DNA of 64,000 nucleotides from Thiomicrorhabdus aquaedulcis (GTDB lineage Bacteria > Pseudomonadota > Gammaproteobacteria > Thiomicrospirales > Thiomicrospiraceae). The notes under the pieces were generated by a model. It was not told the DNA's origin. It did not search any database and was given only the letters and a program-made list of their open reading frames with translations. The stretch covers positions 2,170,001 through 2,234,000 of the forward strand of contig NZ_AP018722.1 in NCBI RefSeq assembly GCF_004001325.1, in the 5' to 3' direction. Made by a program: the position numbers and the translations under genes. This document shows positions 9,385-49,973 of the stretch, piece after piece (positions within the stretch are counted from its first letter, which is position 1; every line of letters starts with the position of its first letter).

Positions 9385-10740
9385 ATGCTTAACACTCGAC
9401 TTGTGTTTATTAAAGGACTGGTTGTTATTTTGGTGTTCACCGTTACTTTTCTAAGTTACCTAGGCTACCAGGCTTACTCATCCATAAATTCGCCTATTTT
9501 GGTTGGAATTTTGCATGCGCAAACCGGCACGATGCATTTAAGCGAACAACCCGTTGCCCAAATGACTCAGCTGGCCATTGACGAAATTAACGCCCAAGGA
9601 GGCATTTTAGGTCATCCTATTAAAGCCGTATCTCTAGACACACAATCCAGTCCACAAACTGCCGCCTTGTTGGCGCAAAAACTTATTAAAGAACACAACG
9701 TTTCGGCCCTGTTTGGCTGTTGGACATCATCGTGTCGCAAAGCGGTAAAACCCGTTGTTGAAGCCAGCGACCATGTATTATTTTACCCCGTGCAATACGA
9801 AGGCATTGAAACCTCAGACGCCATTGTCTATTTAGGACAAACTCTAAACCAGCAAATAAAACCCACCTTAAACTGGGTGGGTCAACACCTAGGGCAACGG
9901 CTTTTTTTGGTGGGCAACGACTACATCTATCCACGAATGGCGCATTTGTACATTAACGACTTGGCACCCTTGTTAAACCTTAGCGTAGTAGATGAACACT
10001 ATGTGCCGTTGGGTCAAACAGACTTTAGCGCCATTATTCAAGCCATTACACACGCCCTTCAAACCCCGGACATCCCGACCGCACCCAACCAAACTGCGTC
10101 AAAACTGGTGATTTTAAACACCTTAAATGGCGACAGCAACATCGCTTTTTTTAAGGCCTTGCATGCGGCCGGACTGCATCCCAGCACGCAACCCATTGTG
10201 TCGTTTAGCGTATCTGACAATGAAATAAACACCATCACCCAACAAGTAGGGGTTACGGCCGTAACCGGACATTATTTGGCTTCAAGTTATTTTGACGGCG
10301 TGATTAACTCTAATAACCATCAGTTTAAAAAACGCTTACAAAAACAAGACATCACCATTCCACAAAATGCCGCCACGGTAAATGCCTATTCGGCACTTTG
10401 GCTTTATAAACAAGCTGTTGAATCGTGTGGCAGCTTTGAACCGCGCCTTTACAAACCCTGTTTAGCCTACCAAAGCTACGCCAGTCCAGCCGGCATTTTA
10501 AGTCTGGACAAAATCAACTTTAACGCCTGGCAAGCCAGCCGCATTGGGCAGTTAAACAGCCAAATGCACTACGATATTATTTGGGATTCTAACACCCCCA
10601 TTAAACCTGAAAACACCCCACACACCCGTTCTGACCAGGCCTGGTCAGAATCGTTATTACACTTTTACACTCAATGGCAACAACAATGGCAGCCCAAAGA
10701 TCAACCCAAAGATCAACCTAACTCGGCGGTGCAACCATGA
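9385..10740 (+). CDS. UrtA/AmiC-type periplasmic substrate-binding protein (Peripla_BP family), probable sensor partner
   Basis: 451 residues with one N-terminal hydrophobic segment (about residues 7-30) acting as a signal peptide or anchor. The mature part is a type I binding protein of the urea/amide branch: VGILHAQTGTMHLSE, DEINAQGGILG, ALFGCWTSSCRKAV, LFYPVQYEG and YLGQTLNQQ are typical of UrtA-like proteins. No ABC permease or ATPase gene is adjacent. Instead its stop overlaps the start of a membrane diguanylate cyclase (ATGA at 10737-10740), so it probably presents a ligand to that sensor. The ligand (urea, short amide or amino acid) cannot be read from sequence. The C-terminus has an in-frame 12-bp duplication (10693-10716, KDQPKDQP), and the palindrome at 10634-10645 has arms extended to 22 bp. 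Confidence 0.88.
   Translation: MLNTRLVFIKGLVVILVFTVTFLSYLGYQAYSSINSPILVGILHAQTGTMHLSEQPVAQMTQLAIDEINAQGGILGHPIKAVSLDTQSSPQTAALLAQKLIKEHNVSALFGCWTSSCRKAVKPVVEASDHVLFYPVQYEGIETSDAIVYLGQTLNQQIKPTLNWVGQHLGQRLFLVGNDYIYPRMAHLYINDLAPLLNLSVVDEHYVPLGQTDFSAIIQAITHALQTPDIPTAPNQTASKLVILNTLNGDSNIAFFKALHAAGLHPSTQPIVSFSVSDNEINTITQQVGVTAVTGHYLASSYFDGVINSNNHQFKKRLQKQDITIPQNAATVNAYSALWLYKQAVESCGSFEPRLYKPCLAYQSYASPAGILSLDKINFNAWQASRIGQLNSQMHYDIIWDSNTPIKPENTPHTRSDQAWSESLLHFYTQWQQQWQPKDQPKDQPNSAVQP
10629..10650. repeat. Extended 22-bp copy of the ACCAGGCCTGGT palindrome inside a gene
   Basis: The palindrome core at 10634-10645 is symmetric for five further bases on each side (left half TTCTGACCAGG). It encodes RSDQAWSES near the C-terminus of the substrate-binding protein. 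Extended symmetry inside coding DNA is not expected from protein-level selection. Confidence 0.85.
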
Positions 10741-12865
10741 ACTTAATTGGCGTTTTAACCCAAAAGTTTACCCAAAAGTTTACCCACCGCATTTTGCATC
10801 AAATTATTGTGGCCATGCTTCTAGTCGCCCTGTTGCCATTAGGGTTAGTGTGGTACCAAGATCACGCCAATAAACACCAACTCTATCAAAACCATTTAAT
10901 AAATTTAAACAGCACTCTACGCTACAACGTAGATTTAATTGTTTCGCATGTTGAGCAACAACAAGCCTTAATTGAAAACATAGCCGCCACGCCGTTAGTA
11001 GGCAACTATTTTGACCCTCTATTTCAATACAACCCTAACTATCAACAACGCTTGGCGAACTATGGACAATCGCTGATTCGAAGTGGACAAATTTTTGATT
11101 GGTTTATTATTTCGTTACAAGGCGATATTTTATATTCGGCGCAAGCCGAGAACGATTTACACTCCAATTTAATTCACGGCCCTTATGCACAAACCGCTTT
11201 AGCGCAGGTCTTTAAACTTAGCCGAGATTTACTCAGTACCGAGCTCTCTGGATTACGCTACTACGCACCGTCTAATAAATACGCCTCTTTTTAACCACGC
11301 CTATTTACGCCCAAGGCACGCTTAAAGGCGTGTTAGCGTTTCAATTCAACAGTGAAACCCTTTTTTCGTTGGTCAGCAGTTACAACGGGCTAGGCAAAAC
11401 TGGCGAACTGGTGGCCGGTGAGCTGGCGGATAACGGCGACATCATCGCAGCTATTCCGCTTAAATACGACCCTCAAGCCGTTGACAACCAACGTAAACTC
11501 AATAAAGGCAACGAAGCCATGGGCATGCTCAAAGCCATTAAAGGCCAGTCGGGTAAGGGGATTATTGTTGATTATCGAGGGGTAAACGCACTGGCCGCCT
11601 GGACATATGTGCCGCAATTAAAATGGGGATTAGTGGTTAAAACCGACTTAAGTGAACTGCAAGAACCCGCACAACAAAAAACTCAGCAACTTATTGGCTT
11701 AGTGTTAGCAATAGGCGTGCTCATCGCCCTGTTAAGTGCCTTGGCCGCGCGATTTATAAGCACGCCGATTCAACAACTTCTAGCCGCTATGCAAGACTAC
11801 ACCCAAGGCCAGCGTAACCGCCGCGCACGCATTCACAGCAATAACGAAATGCACATTTTAGGCACTGCTTTTAACACCATGGCCAACCAAATTGACCAAC
11901 AGATGACCGAACTGTCAACGCAAGCACAGTATATTCAAACCCAATCGGGTCAAATTGAGTCTATGAACAACGAATTACTTCGCACCGTTAGCCAACGCAC
12001 ATTAGAGCTTAAAAAAGCCAACGCCGAGTTAAACGAAAACCTTCAAATTGTCGACGACCATGTTGTATTGGCTCGCACAGACCAACATGGCACTCTTCAA
12101 TATATTAGCCACGCATTTTGTCGTATTATTGGTGTGCAAAAAGACCAACTTCTGGGAAAAAACATTGCACAACTTGATATACCGCTGGTACATCAAGTTC
12201 AAAGTCAGGCTATTCAGACTACGCTGTTGCAAACAGGTCAATGGCAAGGACAAATTGAGTACACCAATGTAAAAAATCAAACCTTTTGGCTGACTATTAT
12301 CATAAACACCATTACCGACGCGCAAGGCGAACTAACCGGCTTTACCGCTTTGGGCGACGATACCACCTACCAAAAACGCCTAGAACAATGGGCCATTACC
12401 GACCAACTCACCAGACTGTATAACCGCCATCATTTAACCCAAGTGCTTAATACTGAAGAACAACGTATGCAACGTTATGCACAACCTTTTTGCCTGATCA
12501 TGTTTGACATTGACCACTTTAAACAAGTTAATGACCAGCACGGTCACGCCGTTGGCGACAAAGTGCTTATCGAAATAGCGCAACTTATGCAACAACACTC
12601 TAGAGAAACCGACGTATGCGGTCGCTGGGGCGGCGAGGAGTTTTTGTGTATTTTGTCGTCCACCCAGCTTGATGATGCTGCTTTAGCGGCCGAAAACCTG
12701 CGTAAAGCACTTGCCAATCATACCGCGCCCAACCTCCCCGCTATTACATGCAGCTTTGGGGTAGCGCAATATCAAACCAACCTAGCCCAATGCCTTAAAG
12801 CCGCCGACGATGCACTGTACAAAGCCAAGCACAATGGCCGCAATAAAGTGTGTGCCGCTTTGTAA
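10737..12865 (+). CDS. Membrane diguanylate cyclase (cache-like sensor, HAMP, PAS, GGDEF), interrupted by a frameshift at 11288-11292
   Basis: Read through the frameshift this is one 709-residue protein. It has TM1 (IIVAMLLVALLPLGLVWY), a periplasmic cache-like domain, TM2 (LIGLVLAIGVLIALLSAL), HAMP, a short coiled coil, PAS (VDDHVVLARTDQHGTL...) and a GGDEF domain with GRWGGEEFLCIL, the active-site form, and MFDIDHFKQVNDQHGH. It should make c-di-GMP in response to the overlapping substrate-binding protein. The upstream frame ends ...NKYASF-stop at 11294 and the downstream frame resumes FLTTPIYAQGTLKG; adding one T to the T5 run at 11288-11292 joins them exactly. The event occurs in the sensor domain. 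Sequencing error is most likely; slippage on TTT at a TAA stop is an alternative. Confidence 0.85.
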
Positions 12866-13665: not shown

Positions 13666-14112
13666 TTAGGCATGCACTTTAAAGGCTTCTACCAATACTT
13701 TTGCCACGCTGGGTTTTATCCAGTTTTCAACGCTCTCTTGCGATTCCAGTAACGGCACATAACCATCGCCCACGGGCAGTGACTCAGATTGTCCGTCTGT
13801 GTTCAATATCGACTCATCGTGAAACGCCATCGCCCAGTCACTAAAATTGCGTTGTTCTAAGGGGTTTTGATACAACTTAAGCACGTCGTAATGTCTAAAA
13901 TCGAGTTTAATTTTAGCAAATAACGCTTCTACAACATCTGACTCACCCTCGAGCACTTGTAAAAAAGAGCCATTTTTATACAGCAACATACCTGTAATAT
14001 CATGGCGTTGATTATAGCGTCTGGCTTTTTTAAGCAAATCAAGCAACTCTGTTGCGTTAAATAATTTAGGCGCACGGCTGGTATAAGCAATTTCTATAAG
14101 ATTATTTTTCAT
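13666..14112 (-). CDS. Short BLUF-domain blue-light photoreceptor
   Basis: Flavin-binding light sensor of 148 residues with only a BLUF domain and a short C-terminal tail, so the output must go through a partner protein. Key residues are visible: Tyr10 (IAYTSRA), Asn34 (RRYNQRHDITG), Gln52 (GSFLQVLEG) and the W93/M95 region (FSDWAMAF), the set that rearranges hydrogen bonds to FAD. It is divergent from the HTH gene at 14168 with 55 bp between starts, which suggests that gene is its partner or regulator. Confidence 0.92.
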   Translation of the reverse strand: MKNNLIEIAYTSRAPKLFNATELLDLLKKARRYNQRHDITGMLLYKNGSFLQVLEGESDVVEALFAKIKLDFRHYDVLKLYQNPLEQRNFSDWAMAFHDESILNTDGQSESLPVGDGYVPLLESQESVENWIKPSVAKVLVEAFKVHA

Positions 14113-17266: not shown

Positions 17267-17680
17267 TTACGAACGAGTTCCATCGAATGGATTTAACCAT
17301 TCCACTTCCAGCATTTTAAAATCGGCGACATTACGCGTTACTACCGTTAAATGATGTACTTTTGCAGTGGCGGCAATCATGGCGTCTTCATACAGCGTAT
17401 TGGACGTGCCATGCATCAATTTAGCCCACGTTCTAAACACCTTGCCATCCAGCGGAAGAATATTGTAACTTTCTGCAACTCGATTCAGCCAAGCCTCAAT
17501 TTCGTTTGCCTTTTGAGGGTCTTGCATTCGTGTTAACTCTATACCTGCCTGAATCTCGCCTAAACTAACCGCCGAAACAAACAGTTGATTGTCGTCAATC
17601 CGTTGAACCCACTCAACCACAGCACCATGCGGTTTGACACGGCGTAACTCAGAAATAATATTAGTGTCGAGAAGATACAT
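17267..17680 (-). CDS. PIN-domain toxin (VapC/FitB-like)
   Basis: 137-residue ribonuclease toxin. The PIN acidic residues are present: Asp5 in LLDTNIISEL, Glu in SLGEIQAGIEL, Asp in LYEDAMIAATA, and the closing TRNVADF. FitB/VapC subfamily by these motifs. It pairs with the antitoxin gene 11 bp upstream (17692-17952). Confidence 0.9.
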   Translation of the reverse strand: MYLLDTNIISELRRVKPHGAVVEWVQRIDDNQLFVSAVSLGEIQAGIELTRMQDPQKANEIEAWLNRVAESYNILPLDGKVFRTWAKLMHGTSNTLYEDAMIAATAKVHHLTVVTRNVADFKMLEVEWLNPFDGTRS

Positions 17681-17691
17681 AATTTTTCTAT

Positions 17692-17952
17692 TTAACCTTC
17701 TAACAGCGTAACTTCACGACGACGCGCTTGCCCACGTTGCGGCAAAACCAAGTCGCCACGCGCATCATCACTCAAAAGTAAGCTTTTTAAACTGGGTTTA
17801 GCGGAAGACTGTAATTGACGCCACAACTCAATCGGCACCAAAACCGCCGTTTCACGGCCACGCTTTGAAACCATCTGTGGACCATCGTGTAAACAAGTCT
17901 CTAAAAACTCACTAAAACGCGCCTTCGCGTCTTGAACTGGCCAAGTATGCAT
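17692..17952 (-). CDS. Phd/YefM-like antitoxin for the PIN toxin
   Basis: 86 residues from ATG 17952 (MHTWPVQDAKARFSEFLE), preceded by AGAAGGAGT; an in-frame earlier start at 17994 is less likely. The N-terminus WPVQDAKARFSEFLETC and GPQMVSKRGRETAVLVP are the Phd/YefM DNA-binding signature; the C-terminus is basic and would hold the toxin. Two copies of TGACTAG (17968, 17981) just upstream are candidate operators for autoregulation. Confidence 0.85.
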   Translation of the reverse strand: MHTWPVQDAKARFSEFLETCLHDGPQMVSKRGRETAVLVPIELWRQLQSSAKPSLKSLLLSDDARGDLVLPQRGQARRREVTLLEG

Positions 17953-18056
17953 AACCAAACTCCTTCTGACTAGAATAATGACTAGTTTACTCATTGCAGA
18001 CTAATTCACAAGCCTAAGTTAAACCAAAGATCAGAAAACCCTGATCGACGCATAAG

Positions 18057-18202: not shown

Positions 18203-18994
18203 TTACGCTTTCACCAAGCGTTCTAAATTTAAGCGTTGTCGGTCATCAAACAGCCGTTTACTGGCCATACTTACGGCAATTAAGGTGCCTAAACCGGTTG
18301 ATGTGGCAATCAGCAACATAATCATAATTTGATATTTTACGGCTTCCATGGGCTCGACTCCGGCTAGGATTTGCCCGGTCATCATGCCGGGTAGCGAGAT
18401 GATTCCGGCGGCGACCAACATGTTAATGACTGGAATCATCGCAGCGTGCAAACTTTGCTCTCTTATAAAACCCATGGCCTGTTTGGCGGTTTTGCCCAAT
18501 GCCAGTTGCGCTTCTATTTTGGCTTTAAGCTGCACTGCATTGCGGGTTAAGGTGTCGAGCCCCACGCCAATGGCGGTCATGCTGTTGCCCAATAACATGC
18601 CTAACAGCGGTATGGCGTATTGCGGTTGATACCAAGGCTCGGGCTGAATCACCAACACCAGTACCCCAACCAGCAGCACCAACGAGGTAAGCGACAGCGA
18701 CAATAAGCCAATCCACAAGCTGTGGTAACGTGCAAAACGGTATTTTTGCCGCTTGGCAATTTCGTAGCCAGCCGCGCTAAGCATCACCACGCCCACTAAC
18801 ACCACCCACAACACGTTTTCTGCGTAAAACACCCAGCTGAGCCACACCCCCATCAACAACAATTGAACAATCATGCGGGCACTGGCCCACCATAATTGCT
18901 TAACTTGGCTAAAGCCGTTTAGCCATAACACTACGCCCAGCAAAACCACCAGGCCTGATAAGGTCAGCAAATCCCAATAACTGATGGCAATCAT
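18203..18994 (-). CDS. fetB: FetB/YbbM-family ABC permease (UPF0014)
   Basis: 263 residues with about seven membrane helices, including ARMIVQLLLMGVWLSWVFY, GYEIAKRQKYRF and SLPGMMTGQILAGVEPMEAVKYQIMI, which are signature segments of the TIGR00245 family. With FetA it forms an exporter that in E. coli lowers cytoplasmic iron and protects from oxidative stress. Its ATG overlaps the fetA stop (18991-18994), confirming the operon. Confidence 0.9.
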   Translation of the reverse strand: MIAISYWDLLTLSGLVVLLGVVLWLNGFSQVKQLWWASARMIVQLLLMGVWLSWVFYAENVLWVVLVGVVMLSAAGYEIAKRQKYRFARYHSLWIGLLSLSLTSLVLLVGVLVLVIQPEPWYQPQYAIPLLGMLLGNSMTAIGVGLDTLTRNAVQLKAKIEAQLALGKTAKQAMGFIREQSLHAAMIPVINMLVAAGIISLPGMMTGQILAGVEPMEAVKYQIMIMLLIATSTGLGTLIAVSMASKRLFDDRQRLNLERLVKA

Positions 18995-19614
18995 ACGGAT
19001 CTCTCTTTTGGTTCAAGACGGCACAGGCAGTGCGGTGTCATCATGCGTTGTATTTGACGCGAATCGTGTGATATCCACAACAGTGCTCGCTGACCCTGGT
19101 CTTGCGCCACGTACTGGCTTAACCAGGCCTCGACTTTTAAGCAGGTGTTTTCATCTAAATTGGCGGTGATTTCATCCAATAACAACACGCTGGGGTGATA
19201 CGATGCGCCGCGCAATAACGCCAATCGCTGTTTTTCTCCGCTGGATAAACTGTCGGGGTTTTTGGCTAAAAAACTGGCTTCTAATCCTAACGCCGCTAAG
19301 TCAGCGTCACTGGGCAAAGTATCAAAGTGCGCGGCGACCGTGTCGTTCCACCAGGCGGTTTCGGCTGAAAAATACATCACCTGTCTGCGCCAAACATCCG
19401 GCGCAGTGAGCGACTGCGCTTGACCGTTTAACCAGGCCTGGCCAGTATGGTCAATTAAATCGGCTAGGGCTTTAAGCAGTTGCGATTTGCCACTGCCCGA
19501 CTCGCCCTGCACCATCCATACTTGACCGGCTTGCACTTTAAAATCAACGGTTTGCGTCATGCCTTGCGCCGCCAAACCTTGCACTTTAAACAGCTCCACG
19601 TTGCTTAAACTCAT
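18991..19614 (-). CDS. fetA: FetA/YbbL-family ABC transporter ATP-binding protein
   Basis: 207 residues from ATG 19614, two bases after the uvrD stop. It carries Walker A GESGSGKSQLL, signature LSSGEKQRLALLRG and Walker B VLLLDEITANLD, plus a closing WISHDSRQ switch His. Small size and pairing with FetB identify it as the exporter ATPase. An in-frame start inside uvrD (19656) would add residues absent from the family. Confidence 0.9.
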   Translation of the reverse strand: MSLSNVELFKVQGLAAQGMTQTVDFKVQAGQVWMVQGESGSGKSQLLKALADLIDHTGQAWLNGQAQSLTAPDVWRRQVMYFSAETAWWNDTVAAHFDTLPSDADLAALGLEASFLAKNPDSLSSGEKQRLALLRGASYHPSVLLLDEITANLDENTCLKVEAWLSQYVAQDQGQRALLWISHDSRQIQRMMTPHCLCRLEPKERSV

Positions 19615-19616
19615 GA

Positions 19617-21917
19617 TTAACGGCGCTCTAGATTGGCGTACGCGGTCACCAACCATTTGGCACCGGCTTGACTAAAATTAACCTGAATGCGCGCGTGCTC
19701 ACCTTGACCTTCTACGCCCAACACCACGCCTTCGCCAAACTTTAAGTGAAACACCCGCTGGCCAATCGCAAAGCCAGTGTCATTTTGAGCCGCCAGGGCC
19801 GCATTTAAACTTGAGTTAGAACCGTTAGAATACCCTGAGTATCCGGGATATCCGGTGGGTTTGACCGAGCCACTGAGCCTTACAAACTCTAAGCATTCGG
19901 CTGGAATCTCTTTAATAAACCGCGACGGTAAAGGATTGTATTCACTGCCGTGCAAACGACGGCGATTGGCAAAGGTAATAACAAGCTGACGTTCGGCGCG
20001 CGTTACGCCAACGTAGGCCAAGCGCCGCTCTTCTTCTAAGCGCGCGGGGTCATCAATCGTGCGCTGCGATGGAAACAACCCCTCTTCAACCCCAATCATA
20101 AACACCAAGCCAAACTCTAGGCCTTTGGCGGCGTGCAGGGTCATTAATTGCACGGCCACTTCCCATTGATCGGCTTGCTGTTCGCCCGCTTCTAACGCGG
20201 CCTGCGCCAAAAACTCGGCCAGTGGGTTGCTGGTTGCGGCGTTTAACAACAAGGTGCCATCGCTTTGCGCTTGTGCATCAAAACCGGCTTGAATCACCTG
20301 AGCTTCGCTGGCGATTGCCTCGCTGGTTTGTTGTGCCGACTCTTGTCCAACCGGCGTCTGCTTAAATTGCGCGGCGGCGTTAATCAACTCGTCAATGTTT
20401 TCTAACCGGCCTTTGCCTTGCTCAGAGCTGTCTTTTTCAAAATACGTTTGCAAGCCCGAACGCGAAATGACTTTAAGCATTTGGTCTTCCAACGGCAGGG
20501 CTTGCAAGGCCTGGTCAAAGTCGTCAATTAACATTAAAAAGCTCTCCAACGCCGTTTTAGCGCGCGCGGTTAAACCTTTTGCCACCAGTTGCTGAGCCGC
20601 ATCCCACAACGAAATTTGTTGCTCACGCGCCACATCACGCAAAGTGTCGGAGGTTTTTTGACCAATGCCGCGTGGCGGATGATTGTGCACGCGCTCAAAC
20701 GCCGCGTCGTCGTGGCGATTGATTAACAGCCGCAAATAGGCCAAAACGTCTTTGATTTCGGCACGATCGTAAAAACGCAACCCACCATAAACACGATATG
20801 GAATGCGCGCCTGCAATAACGCCTGCTCCATAATGCGCGATTGAGCGTTAGAGCGATACAACACCGCAATGTCATTGCGCTGGCCACCTTGGTCGCACCA
20901 TTGTTCTATTTGATGACAGACGTAACGCGCTTCGTCCACCTCGTTAAACGCTTCATACACTTTTATGGGTGCGCCATCTTCACCCGCGCTCCACAACTCT
21001 TTGCCCATACGCGAGGTGTTGTGGGCAATTAAGCCGTTGGCGGCTTTTAAAATGGTATTAGTTGAACGATAATTTTGCTCTAAACGCACCTGAATAACCT
21101 GGGCAAAATCGGCGTCAAATTGGCGAATATTTTCAACCTTAGCACCACGCCAACCATAAATGGATTGGTCGTCGTCACCCACCACAAATAACTTACCGCT
21201 GCCACCGGCCAACACCCGCAGCCAGGCGTATTGCAAACTGTTGGTGTCTTGAAACTCGTCCACTAAAATGTGTTTATAACGCGCCTGATAATGCGCCAAC
21301 ACATGCGGATTTTTTAACCACAGCTCATGCGCACGCAACAATAACTCGGCAAAATCGACCAGGCCTGATCGCTGGCATTGTTCTTCGTAGGCTTTGTAAA
21401 TTTGCACCATCTGCGCCACAAACGGATTGTGTCCCACGTCAATATGATGCGGACGCCGACCCTCTTCTTTTTCGCCATTGATAAAGGCTTGTACCTGCTT
21501 ATGTGGCCATTGTGTTTCGTCCAGTTCAAGTGCTTTTAACAGGCGTTTAATCACCCGTTTTTGATCATCCGAATCCAATATTTGAAAACTCGCGGCCAAG
21601 CCCACTTCTTGATGATGCTGACGTAACAACCGATACGCAATGCCGTGAAACGTACCCATCGTTAAACCGGCGGCATTTTGTCCTACCAAAGCCTCAATTC
21701 GACCGCGCATTTCGCTGGCGGCTTTATTGGTAAACGTCACCGCCAAAATATTGTAGGGCGAAAAGCCCATCACCTGCGACAACCAAGCAATACGATGCAC
21801 CAACACCCGCGTTTTGCCACTGCCCGCGCCGGCTAAAATTAACGCATGCGAATTATCTGCCGTTACCGCAGCGCGTTGCGCATCGTTTAAATCATTTAAT
21901 ATATACGAAATATCCAT
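19617..21917 (-). CDS. uvrD: DNA helicase II UvrD
   Basis: 3'-5' superfamily 1A helicase for nucleotide-excision and mismatch repair. From ATG 21917 (MDISYILNDLNDAQ, matching E. coli UvrD MDVSYLLDSLND) it has 766 residues. Motifs seen: LAGAGSGKTRVL (Walker A), TFTNKAASEMRGRI, LVDEFQDTN, VVGDDDQSIYGWRGA, LEQNYRST, TLHAAKGLEFGLVF and AYVGVTRAERQL. It ends in a Tudor-like tail (FHLKFGEGVVLGVEG...VNFSQAGAKWLV). It heads the uvrD-fetAB run. Four degenerate palindrome copies lie in or near this block. Confidence 0.95.
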   Translation of the reverse strand: MDISYILNDLNDAQRAAVTADNSHALILAGAGSGKTRVLVHRIAWLSQVMGFSPYNILAVTFTNKAASEMRGRIEALVGQNAAGLTMGTFHGIAYRLLRQHHQEVGLAASFQILDSDDQKRVIKRLLKALELDETQWPHKQVQAFINGEKEEGRRPHHIDVGHNPFVAQMVQIYKAYEEQCQRSGLVDFAELLLRAHELWLKNPHVLAHYQARYKHILVDEFQDTNSLQYAWLRVLAGGSGKLFVVGDDDQSIYGWRGAKVENIRQFDADFAQVIQVRLEQNYRSTNTILKAANGLIAHNTSRMGKELWSAGEDGAPIKVYEAFNEVDEARYVCHQIEQWCDQGGQRNDIAVLYRSNAQSRIMEQALLQARIPYRVYGGLRFYDRAEIKDVLAYLRLLINRHDDAAFERVHNHPPRGIGQKTSDTLRDVAREQQISLWDAAQQLVAKGLTARAKTALESFLMLIDDFDQALQALPLEDQMLKVISRSGLQTYFEKDSSEQGKGRLENIDELINAAAQFKQTPVGQESAQQTSEAIASEAQVIQAGFDAQAQSDGTLLLNAATSNPLAEFLAQAALEAGEQQADQWEVAVQLMTLHAAKGLEFGLVFMIGVEEGLFPSQRTIDDPARLEEERRLAYVGVTRAERQLVITFANRRRLHGSEYNPLPSRFIKEIPAECLEFVRLSGSVKPTGYPGYSGYSNGSNSSLNAALAAQNDTGFAIGQRVFHLKFGEGVVLGVEGQGEHARIQVNFSQAGAKWLVTAYANLERR

Positions 21918-47555: not shown

Positions 47556-48632
47556 TTAACAGATATTAGGAATATCGTCCATTGGGTAGGGCAAAAACAG
47601 GTCGTTTAGCATCTCTTCGTTAAAATCGTCTACCGATTCGGCGGCTTTATCGCTGCGGGCAAAGCGCGCCACATGAAACAGCGCTTCACCTTCGTTTACC
47701 AAAGGCATTTTCATTTGCCCAATCACAATGCCATTGTTGGTTGAGTAAATTTCCATTTCGGTTTCGCCAAACGGGTCGGACACCACCCCCATCAAAGTGA
47801 CGTTGGCAATCACGCGCGCGCCGTCGGGCACAATCGACCTAAAAATACCGCTTTGCGGGGCGCGCAACCAAAAGCTGGAGCGTGCTACCACCGATTTTTT
47901 GGGCTTTTCGCCCTTTTCGATTTTTTTGCGTGAGCGCGGCAACATTTCTAACTCGCGCATAACGTTTAAAATTCCGCGCACACCGGCGCGAATAGACACT
48001 TCGTCAAAGCGCAACGCCTCACCGGCTTCGTACAATAAAATAGGAATGTTCTTTTTTACCGCCGCCGCACGCAAAGAACCATCGCGTAAATCGGAGTTAA
48101 GCATCAGCGGCGCGCCAAAGGTGTGCGCTAGACGTAAGGTTTCGGGGTCGTCTAAATTGGCACGAATTTGCGGTAAATTAGAGCGATTAATCGCACCGGT
48201 GTGCAAGTCAATGCCGTGCGTGGATTGTTTGACCACTTCGTTTAAAAACAGATGCGCCATGCGACTGGCAATAGAGCCTTTTTCGGAACCCGGAAAACTG
48301 CGATTTAAATCGCGGCGGTCGGGCAAATAACGGCTGTGATGAATAAACCCATGCAAATTCACAATCGGCACCGCGATTAAACTGCCCTTTAAACGATTTA
48401 ACGCTTTGACCTTTAATAGACGGCGAATAATCTCCACCCCATTCAACTCATCGCCATGAATGGCCGCACTCACAAACAATTTGGGGCCAGCTTGTTTGCC
48501 GCACAACACTTGCACCGGCATGGTTAAGGCGCTGTGGGTATAGAGTTTGCCTACTTCCAAATCGACCGTTTTACGCTCGCCTGGCAAAATAGCCTGACCG
48601 CCAATGGTGATAATTTGATTGCGTTTTGACAC
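47556..48632 (-). CDS. Succinylglutamate desuccinylase/aspartoacylase-family protein (COG3608)
   Basis: 358 residues from GTG 48632 (VSKRNQIITIGGQ), 8 bp after rimK with AGGGG upstream; an ATG farther up would overlap rimK extensively. Zinc carboxypeptidase-like motifs: SAAIHGDELNGVEIIRRL (His, Glu ligands), DLNRSFPG and HGIDLHTG. The C-terminal biotin-lipoyl-like part is FRSIVPDGARVIANVTLMGVVSDPFGETE. Its placement with RimK suggests removal or trimming of an amino-acid modification, an inference. Confidence 0.88.
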   Translation of the reverse strand: MSKRNQIITIGGQAILPGERKTVDLEVGKLYTHSALTMPVQVLCGKQAGPKLFVSAAIHGDELNGVEIIRRLLKVKALNRLKGSLIAVPIVNLHGFIHHSRYLPDRRDLNRSFPGSEKGSIASRMAHLFLNEVVKQSTHGIDLHTGAINRSNLPQIRANLDDPETLRLAHTFGAPLMLNSDLRDGSLRAAAVKKNIPILLYEAGEALRFDEVSIRAGVRGILNVMRELEMLPRSRKKIEKGEKPKKSVVARSSFWLRAPQSGIFRSIVPDGARVIANVTLMGVVSDPFGETEMEIYSTNNGIVIGQMKMPLVNEGEALFHVARFARSDKAAESVDDFNEEMLNDLFLPYPMDDIPNIC

Positions 48633-48639
48633 GCTTAAC

Positions 48640-49545
48640 TTACCCCTGACCTTTGGTGCTGGTGTTATTGCGCTTGGCATTTTTCTCAATAAACTGAATA
48701 ATAATGCCGGCCACGTCTTTGCTGGTCGCGCCCTCAATGCCTTCTAGGCCAGGCGATGAATTGACCTCCATCACCACTGGGCCGTGATTTGAGCGCAGTA
48801 AATCGACGCCGCACACATTTAAGCCCATAATTTTGGCCGCACGAATCGCCGTAGCGCGCTCTTCTGGCGTAATGCGAATCAGTGAGGCCGAGCCGCCTTG
48901 GTGTAAGTTAGAGCGAAATTCACCCTCTTTGCCTTGACGTTTCATGGCCGCAATAACTTTGCCGCCCACCACAAAACAGCGAATGTCCGCGCCTTTGGCC
49001 TCTTTAATAAACTCTTGCACCAAAATATTGGCTTTTAAACCGTTAAACGCCTGAATCACGCTGGAAGCCGCTGAATGGGTTTCGGCCAACACAACGCCCA
49101 CACCTTGGGTGCCTTCGAGCAGTTTAATCACCACCGGTGCGCCACCCACTGTTTTAAGCAAGTCGTCCACGTCGTCGGGCGAATGAGCAAAACCCGACAC
49201 CGGTAAGCCCACGCCTTTGCGCGACAGCAACTGCAAACTGCGTAATTTATCGCGAGAGCGCGAAATGGCGACCGATTCGTTGAGTGGGTAAACGCCCATC
49301 ATCTCAAACTGCCGCAATACCGCTGTACCGTAAAAGGTAATGGACGCGCCAATGCGCGGAATAATCGCATCAAAATCGCCCAAGATGCGGCCTTTGTAAT
49401 GAATTTGCGGATGGTTTGAGGTGATGTTCATGTAGCACCGCAGAGCATCAATCACTTCCACTTCGTGACCACGCGCTTGTGCCGCTTCTACCAGTCGACG
49501 GGTCGAATACAGTCTTGGACCACGCGACAAAATAGCAATTTTCAT
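48640..49545 (-). CDS. rimK: RimK-type ATP-grasp ligase (ribosomal protein S6 glutamylation)
   Basis: 301 residues, like E. coli Rim[88 protein letters not shown] and [14 protein letters not shown] are the signature. Adds Glu to the S6 C-terminus. Its ATG overlaps the stop of the protease gene upstream. Confidence 0.94.
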
Positions 49546-49973
49546 ACTTTTTTTCCTTGTAAAAACGACTTGCTGGGATTAACCAAAAAACCACCGGTTC
49601 GTAAAGCGGTGCGGCCTAACAACATATTAAAGCGCATGGTATCACGCGCCGTTAAACTTAGTTGAATGGGAAAGCGGTGTTGACCTATTTCTAACTGGGT
49701 TTGAATAAATAAGCGTTCAGTCACGTTACCGCCCGAATCGGTCACGGCACGTTTATCAACCACTTGCGCCTCACACGCTTGCACTTGGCTTAAATCGCGT
49801 TCGTCAATGTGCACCCAAAAGCGCACCCATTCTTGCCCGTCTTGCAAAAAGGGCTCTACCTTAAACGCATGCAACGCCGAGGTTTTAGCCCCGGTGTCTA
49901 CCTTGCATTTTAGCGCCTTAATGCCAATTTGCGGCAGTGCAACCCACTCACGCCAACCCACCATATTGTTCAT
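49542..49973 (-). CDS. Retropepsin-like aspartyl protease of the RimB / 'ATP-dependent zinc protease' family
   Basis: 143 residues. [30 protein letters not shown] carries the DTGA active-site motif; MLLGRTALR is the second conserved element. Paired with rimK by ATGA overlap as in pseudomonads (rimABK). Often called ATP-dependent zinc protease, but the sequence indicates an aspartyl fold. Heads the three-gene operon. Confidence 0.9.

Follow-up and report, generated by a model that had tools for sequence, protein, structure and literature searches.

The binding protein gene and the split cyclase gene

The window analysed here (the whole stretch of 64,000 nucleotides from the Thiomicrorhabdus aquaedulcis contig NZ_AP018722.1) carries on its forward strand a gene for a UrtA-like substrate-binding protein (SBP; 9385-10740, 451 aa, without a lipobox), followed by a diguanylate cyclase gene. 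A Pfam search assigns the SBP to Peripla_BP_5 (E = 3.3e-106), in line with the UrtA/AmiC-type protein read from the letters in an earlier note, and TIGR03407, the model for UrtA of the urea ABC transporter, scores it at 338.4 bits, below the curated cut-off of 492.75. The best Foldseek matches of its AlphaFold model (mean pLDDT 81) are urea-bound UrtA proteins, which are the nearest solved structures. The protein begins with a hydrophobic helix (aa 2-35, 9385-9489, from the secondary structure of the model and the sequence) that is a probable uncleaved membrane anchor, and towards its C terminus alignments and model place a tail helix with a W...W motif (aa 417-435, 10633-10689). The cyclase gene opens at 10737 and the SBP gene closes at 10740, so that the two have in common the four bases of an ATGA stop/start overlap (10737-10740), just as first described.

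Alignment to solved UrtA, with counts over 84 relatives, places a urea-type pocket at W113, S115, Y134, Q137, E139, Y180, N248 and S275 of the SBP (9721-10209). In Prochlorococcus UrtA, urea is contacted by W120, S122, Y141, Q144, E146, Y190, N246 and S274, and homologues with these residues bound urea (PMC10392092). All eight contacts are kept in the window SBP, and the complete set is found in 44 of 49 sensor-linked relatives, whereas AmiC differs at three pocket positions, having Y, P and V where the window SBP has W, Q and N; AmiC-type amide sensing was ruled out on this ground. Together with the urea-binding nearest structures, the retained contacts and the AmiC differences make urea or a near relative such as formamide the best guess. 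The "branched or amide" ligand first suggested by family can thus be sharpened towards urea, which, judged from the pocket residues, is likely to be the ligand.

The cyclase gene is split over two frames. Its 5' part (10737-11294) encodes the first transmembrane helix and the first part of a double Cache (dCache) domain and stops at a premature TAA (11292-11294) after 185 codons, inside the periplasmic Cache domain. The 3' part (11291-12865), in another frame, encodes the rest of the dCache domain, a second transmembrane helix (TM2), a HAMP domain (11744-11896; PF00672, 3.1e-9), a PAS domain (12056-12367; PF13426, 4.9e-11) and a GGDEF domain (12392-12847; PF00990, 5.7e-45), whose translation contains a GGEEF active-site motif (12629-12643) and, five residues ahead of it, an RETD (RxxD) inhibitory site. 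The break lies at a short T run (11284-11294) within a conserved AF-x-x-x-P-I Cache strand; an alignment with eleven relatives puts the junction of the two parts precisely within this strand, and the intact Sulfurimonas gene (locus L031) reads through the site. A double Cache fold between the two transmembrane helices is supported by the model of this Sulfurimonas partner protein (pLDDT 79), whose periplasmic part matches dCache domains in Foldseek; the two window parts align with a dCache domain of this type, their Pfam dCache_1 score on its own lying below gathering. The cache-like, HAMP, PAS and GGEEF modules named in the earlier note are therefore all encoded downstream of the SBP, and a GG[DE]EF motif is present with its GGDEF domain, but a single continuous frame from sensor to GGDEF is absent, a break that the earlier note overlooked. 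Given the broken frame in this assembly, the gene does not encode a functional cyclase as a single protein.

Recurrence of the pair and separation from transport proteins

The pair was sought in other genomes, as had been advised, and it is conserved well beyond this one, so that the objection of a pair without conservation falls away. The search covered 84,980 species genomes and gave 17 loci, at 12 of which the SBP adjoins a signalling gene. The hosts of these twelve are cyanobacteria, an anammox planctomycete, a parachlamydia, Bacteroidota, Balneolota, Sulfurimonas, Shewanella and a zetaproteobacterium, and the outputs are histidine kinase, hybrid kinase, SpoIIE phosphatase and, in Sulfurimonas, GGDEF, the last in a pair with the same ATGA overlap as the window pair. 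We built two profiles, one for the SBPs (A3) and one for the Cache-HAMP region (A1). In 369 gammaproteobacterial genomes, the SBP places that extend into the C-terminal tail of the model, uninterrupted by a stop, number nine. A Cache sensor follows directly downstream of eight of them, and the remaining one (G345) overlaps a PAS-GGDEF-EAL gene that lies upstream. Comparison by eye of roughly 98 untailed SBP places with the Cache places of the same 369 genomes gave no coincidence. A 398-genome sample of Pseudomonadota contained more than 30 additional tailed SBPs with the same pairing, and plasmid searches returned only transport UrtA and distant chemoreceptors. Further outputs include PAS-GGDEF-EAL (L215), a dCache chemoreceptor (L087) and a class III adenylate/guanylate cyclase (L099). 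The exact ATGA overlap is found in 22 of the 49 sensor-linked relatives. All told, the SBP-sensor pair recurs in at least seven bacterial phyla, which is more than chance would give.

The association is looser at some loci. The same Cache family also occurs without an adjacent SBP (for example at L081 and L082). An SBP is thus not needed in every case, which counts against strict dependence. At L196 and L197 the tailed SBP stands next to a chemoreceptor with a four-helix-bundle (4HB) sensor, not a Cache domain, which suggests that the receptor half may use a second type of docking domain. In three tailed SBPs (L026:4420-6198, L212:5632-7410 and L204:2571-4355) the tail is followed by an additional soluble Cache-like domain, and those at L026 and L212 adjoin a histidine kinase gene and a response-regulator HD-GYP gene.

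In the SBP tree, 49 sensor-linked and 28 permease-linked proteins are split on one branch with support of 100/99. Most of them were labelled from the neighbouring gene; the sensor labels lacking a Cache neighbour (L138, L167, L168, L026 and L048) were assigned by hand, and L189 was counted as sensor-linked even though its contig does not include the downstream gene. The split recurs in every one of the 200 bootstrap trees, whether the tail columns are kept or removed, and it rules out a grouping of the window SBP with transport UrtA; the window protein is divergent and sits on a long branch, so that its precise position among the sensor-linked proteins is uncertain. Close to the C terminus, 46 of the 49 sensor-linked SBPs have a W-x-x-x-W/Y motif, against none of the 28 permease-linked ones.

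Genome context and state of the cyclase gene

The window genome (2.54 Mb, 2 contigs, 99.96% complete) carries only one SBP of the UrtA-like type. A BPD_transp_2 (PF02653) permease gave no match anywhere in it, whereas control genomes do match, and no urease alpha subunit was found in the genome. An unlinked UrtBCDE, which the earlier note had named as the finding that would count against its reading, is thus ruled out as the transporter of this SBP. The same note's remark that no ABC genes are near holds for transporters of this type genome-wide, but not literally, as a UPF0014 and ABC_tran gene pair, not of the urea or branched-chain type, lies about 5 kb away at 18206-19656; these genes possibly encode a FetAB-like exporter and have no relation to the uptake of urea or amino acids. 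This genome encodes one more member of the same Cache family (L095:5871-8369), a chemoreceptor that has two HAMP domains; it was set aside as a second SBP partner because no SBP gene adjoins it. Elsewhere in the window, a short protein after EF-P resembles a BLUF blue-light domain by eye (13666-14112), a VapC-type PIN toxin-like gene and an antitoxin gene are suggested from translation (17267-17994), and Zn-protease (PF05618), RimK ATP-grasp and AstE/AspA-like genes stand in a row at 47556-49973. A RimA/RimB/RimK system has been tied to c-di-GMP in Pseudomonas (PMC4741518).

The pair sits between patatin and EF-P genes. In eight sister species phosphoglucomutase (or its end), patatin and EF-P adjoin, with a patatin-EF-P gap of about 100-200 bases and no trace of the pair at the junction; a ninth has a 0.6-kb gap, likewise without the pair. 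This absence points to a lineage-specific insertion or to repeated loss. With a GC content of 0.44-0.46 the pair differs little from its surroundings, so composition gives no pointer to a recent foreign source. Among 32 genomes of the genus the tailed SBP occurs in the window genome only, and selection for the pair in this lineage can therefore not be claimed. Untailed UrtA-like SBPs occur in seven further genomes of the genus, and a permease gene lies directly downstream at five of these loci, as it does at L012.

The window copy of the cyclase gene may be recently inactivated, affected by a base-call error, or held in a switchable, reversible off state. We rank the first two about equally likely, each well short of even odds yet a serious contender. 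Decay of the cyclase in this lineage, leaving the pair as an insertion relic and the SBP without its partner, would fit a break that strikes a conserved Cache strand and a pair that is missing at the same junction in eight sister species; the SBP of the Shewanella hanedai pair (L032:5914-7125) also has an in-frame stop, and so is itself damaged or misread. Set against decay are the full-length SBP and the intact second Cache half, HAMP, PAS, RxxD and GGEEF, all within one 524-codon open frame, and since the gene bears a single lesion, inactivation would be very recent at most. The lone lesion at a homopolymer, with conserved parts on both sides, speaks for an error in a gene that is intact in the organism. 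The other adjacent or overlapping same-strand ORF pairs checked in the window proved to be separate genes, so the break is isolated; this leaves no sign of real decay nearby, but it also means that the assembly does not look error-prone, and a run of five T is short for such an error. Slippage during transcription or translation, which would yield some full-length cyclase and act as a regulated or low-level off switch, appears improbable: a -1 slip at TTTTTAA would re-pair and join both frames, but the site is not conserved, the T run has little length for slippage, and -1 slips do not usually occur with a stop codon in the A site. A conserved programmed frameshift was rejected, as intact relatives have no stop at the site.

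A proposed two-part receptor and its relation to known systems

We propose, with a probability of about 0.72, that the pair encodes a two-part receptor in which an SBP for a urea-like ligand acts through a dCache domain on a GGDEF partner that makes c-di-GMP. The UrtA-like SBP would reside in the periplasm, probably held there by its N-terminal helix, and would close on a small urea-like ligand, most likely urea itself. Its ligand state would then reach the partner's dCache domain, probably through direct contact aided by the C-terminal tail helix, and be relayed through TM2, HAMP and PAS to the GGDEF domain and its c-di-GMP synthesis. Ligand binding could raise or lower c-di-GMP output. In evolution the same receptor half appears to have been joined to kinases, phosphatases, chemoreceptors, c-di-GMP phosphodiesterases and a class III cyclase. 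The core of the earlier note, with the binding protein as receptor, the cyclase as output and no transporter, is well supported by the conservation of the pair and the lack of a UrtBCDE-type permease, and we regard the receptor role of the SBP as likely.

Two other accounts of the SBP have to be weighed against this reading. It might be an ordinary transport SBP, working for a transporter (ABC or other) that is unlinked or of a different kind, and lying next to the cyclase gene incidentally; it is, after all, homologous to UrtA and keeps the urea-type pocket intact, and SBPs are able to work with transporters encoded far away. The near-complete genome without a BPD_transp_2 permease, the grouping with sensor-linked rather than permease-linked SBPs, the tail and the ATGA overlap with a sensor gene make this account very improbable. 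The dCache domain might instead sense a ligand of its own, with the SBP merely delivering or buffering a different compound. Cache domains of this family do stand alone in other genomes, and dCache domains usually bind ligands directly, as the Foldseek neighbours PctA, Mlp24 and McpH illustrate. The repeated gene overlap across phyla and outputs argues for a shared pathway, and we consider separate sensing unlikely.

Since this gene arrangement is found in at least seven phyla and is coupled to differing signal outputs, the pair appears to be a sensor module, for urea or a molecule like it, that can be reused. We advance more tentatively, at somewhat less than even odds, the broader view that the tailed clade is a detachable urea receptor for nearly every output class, and that urea serves as a cue for many bacteria that have neither urease nor urea uptake. 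Were the two-part receptor correct, many orphan sensors in at least seven phyla, c-di-GMP enzymes among them, would gain a testable ligand in urea or a close relative, and the W...W tail would provide a simple sequence mark that tells sensing UrtA-like proteins from transport UrtA; the former are easily mis-annotated as subunits of urea transporters.

That SBPs trigger kinases, chemoreceptors and c-di-GMP enzymes is established (PMC9602780, PMC8967002, PMC9993111, PMC11113362), and in c-di-GMP networks SBP_bac_3 is, according to a review, the sole member of the PBP clan to have been studied (PMC8846402). The closest parallel is NspS-MbaA of Vibrio cholerae and Sinorhizobium meliloti, in which a polyamine-binding protein controls a GGDEF-EAL enzyme. 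As in that system, an SBP is encoded with a membrane c-di-GMP enzyme, on which it would act, and needs no transport role (PMC8967002, PMC9993111), and the arrangement typical of it, an SBP gene adjoining a sensor with a periplasmic domain, is found here and recurs. Unlike NspS, which is of another SBP family and binds polyamines, the window SBP is of the UrtA/Peripla_BP_5 type with a urea-type pocket, and unlike MbaA its partner is a dCache-HAMP-PAS-GGDEF protein, the receptor half being common to many output classes. With UrtA of UrtABCDE the window SBP shares its fold and all eight urea-contact residues (PMC10392092), but it differs in scoring below the TIGR03407 cut-off, in lacking a permease in its genome, in belonging to a separate clade, and in having an additional tail and a sensor partner. 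AmiC, the amide sensor of Pseudomonas aeruginosa, is of the same fold family and likewise a binding protein repurposed for sensing; it controls AmiR, an antiterminator, and not a membrane receptor. For the SBP-dependent sensor kinases AgtS and AruS of P. aeruginosa and BctE of Bordetella, too, the SBP gene lies next to a sensor whose periplasmic domain the SBP stimulates (PMC11113362, PMC9602780), but these SBPs are of other families, have other ligands and can also serve transporters. Within the open-licence literature we found no paper describing a sensor clade of UrtA-like, urea-type SBPs whose outputs are interchangeable. SBPs acting as receptors are thus a known principle, and what would be new here is a urea-type clade that serves nearly every output class.
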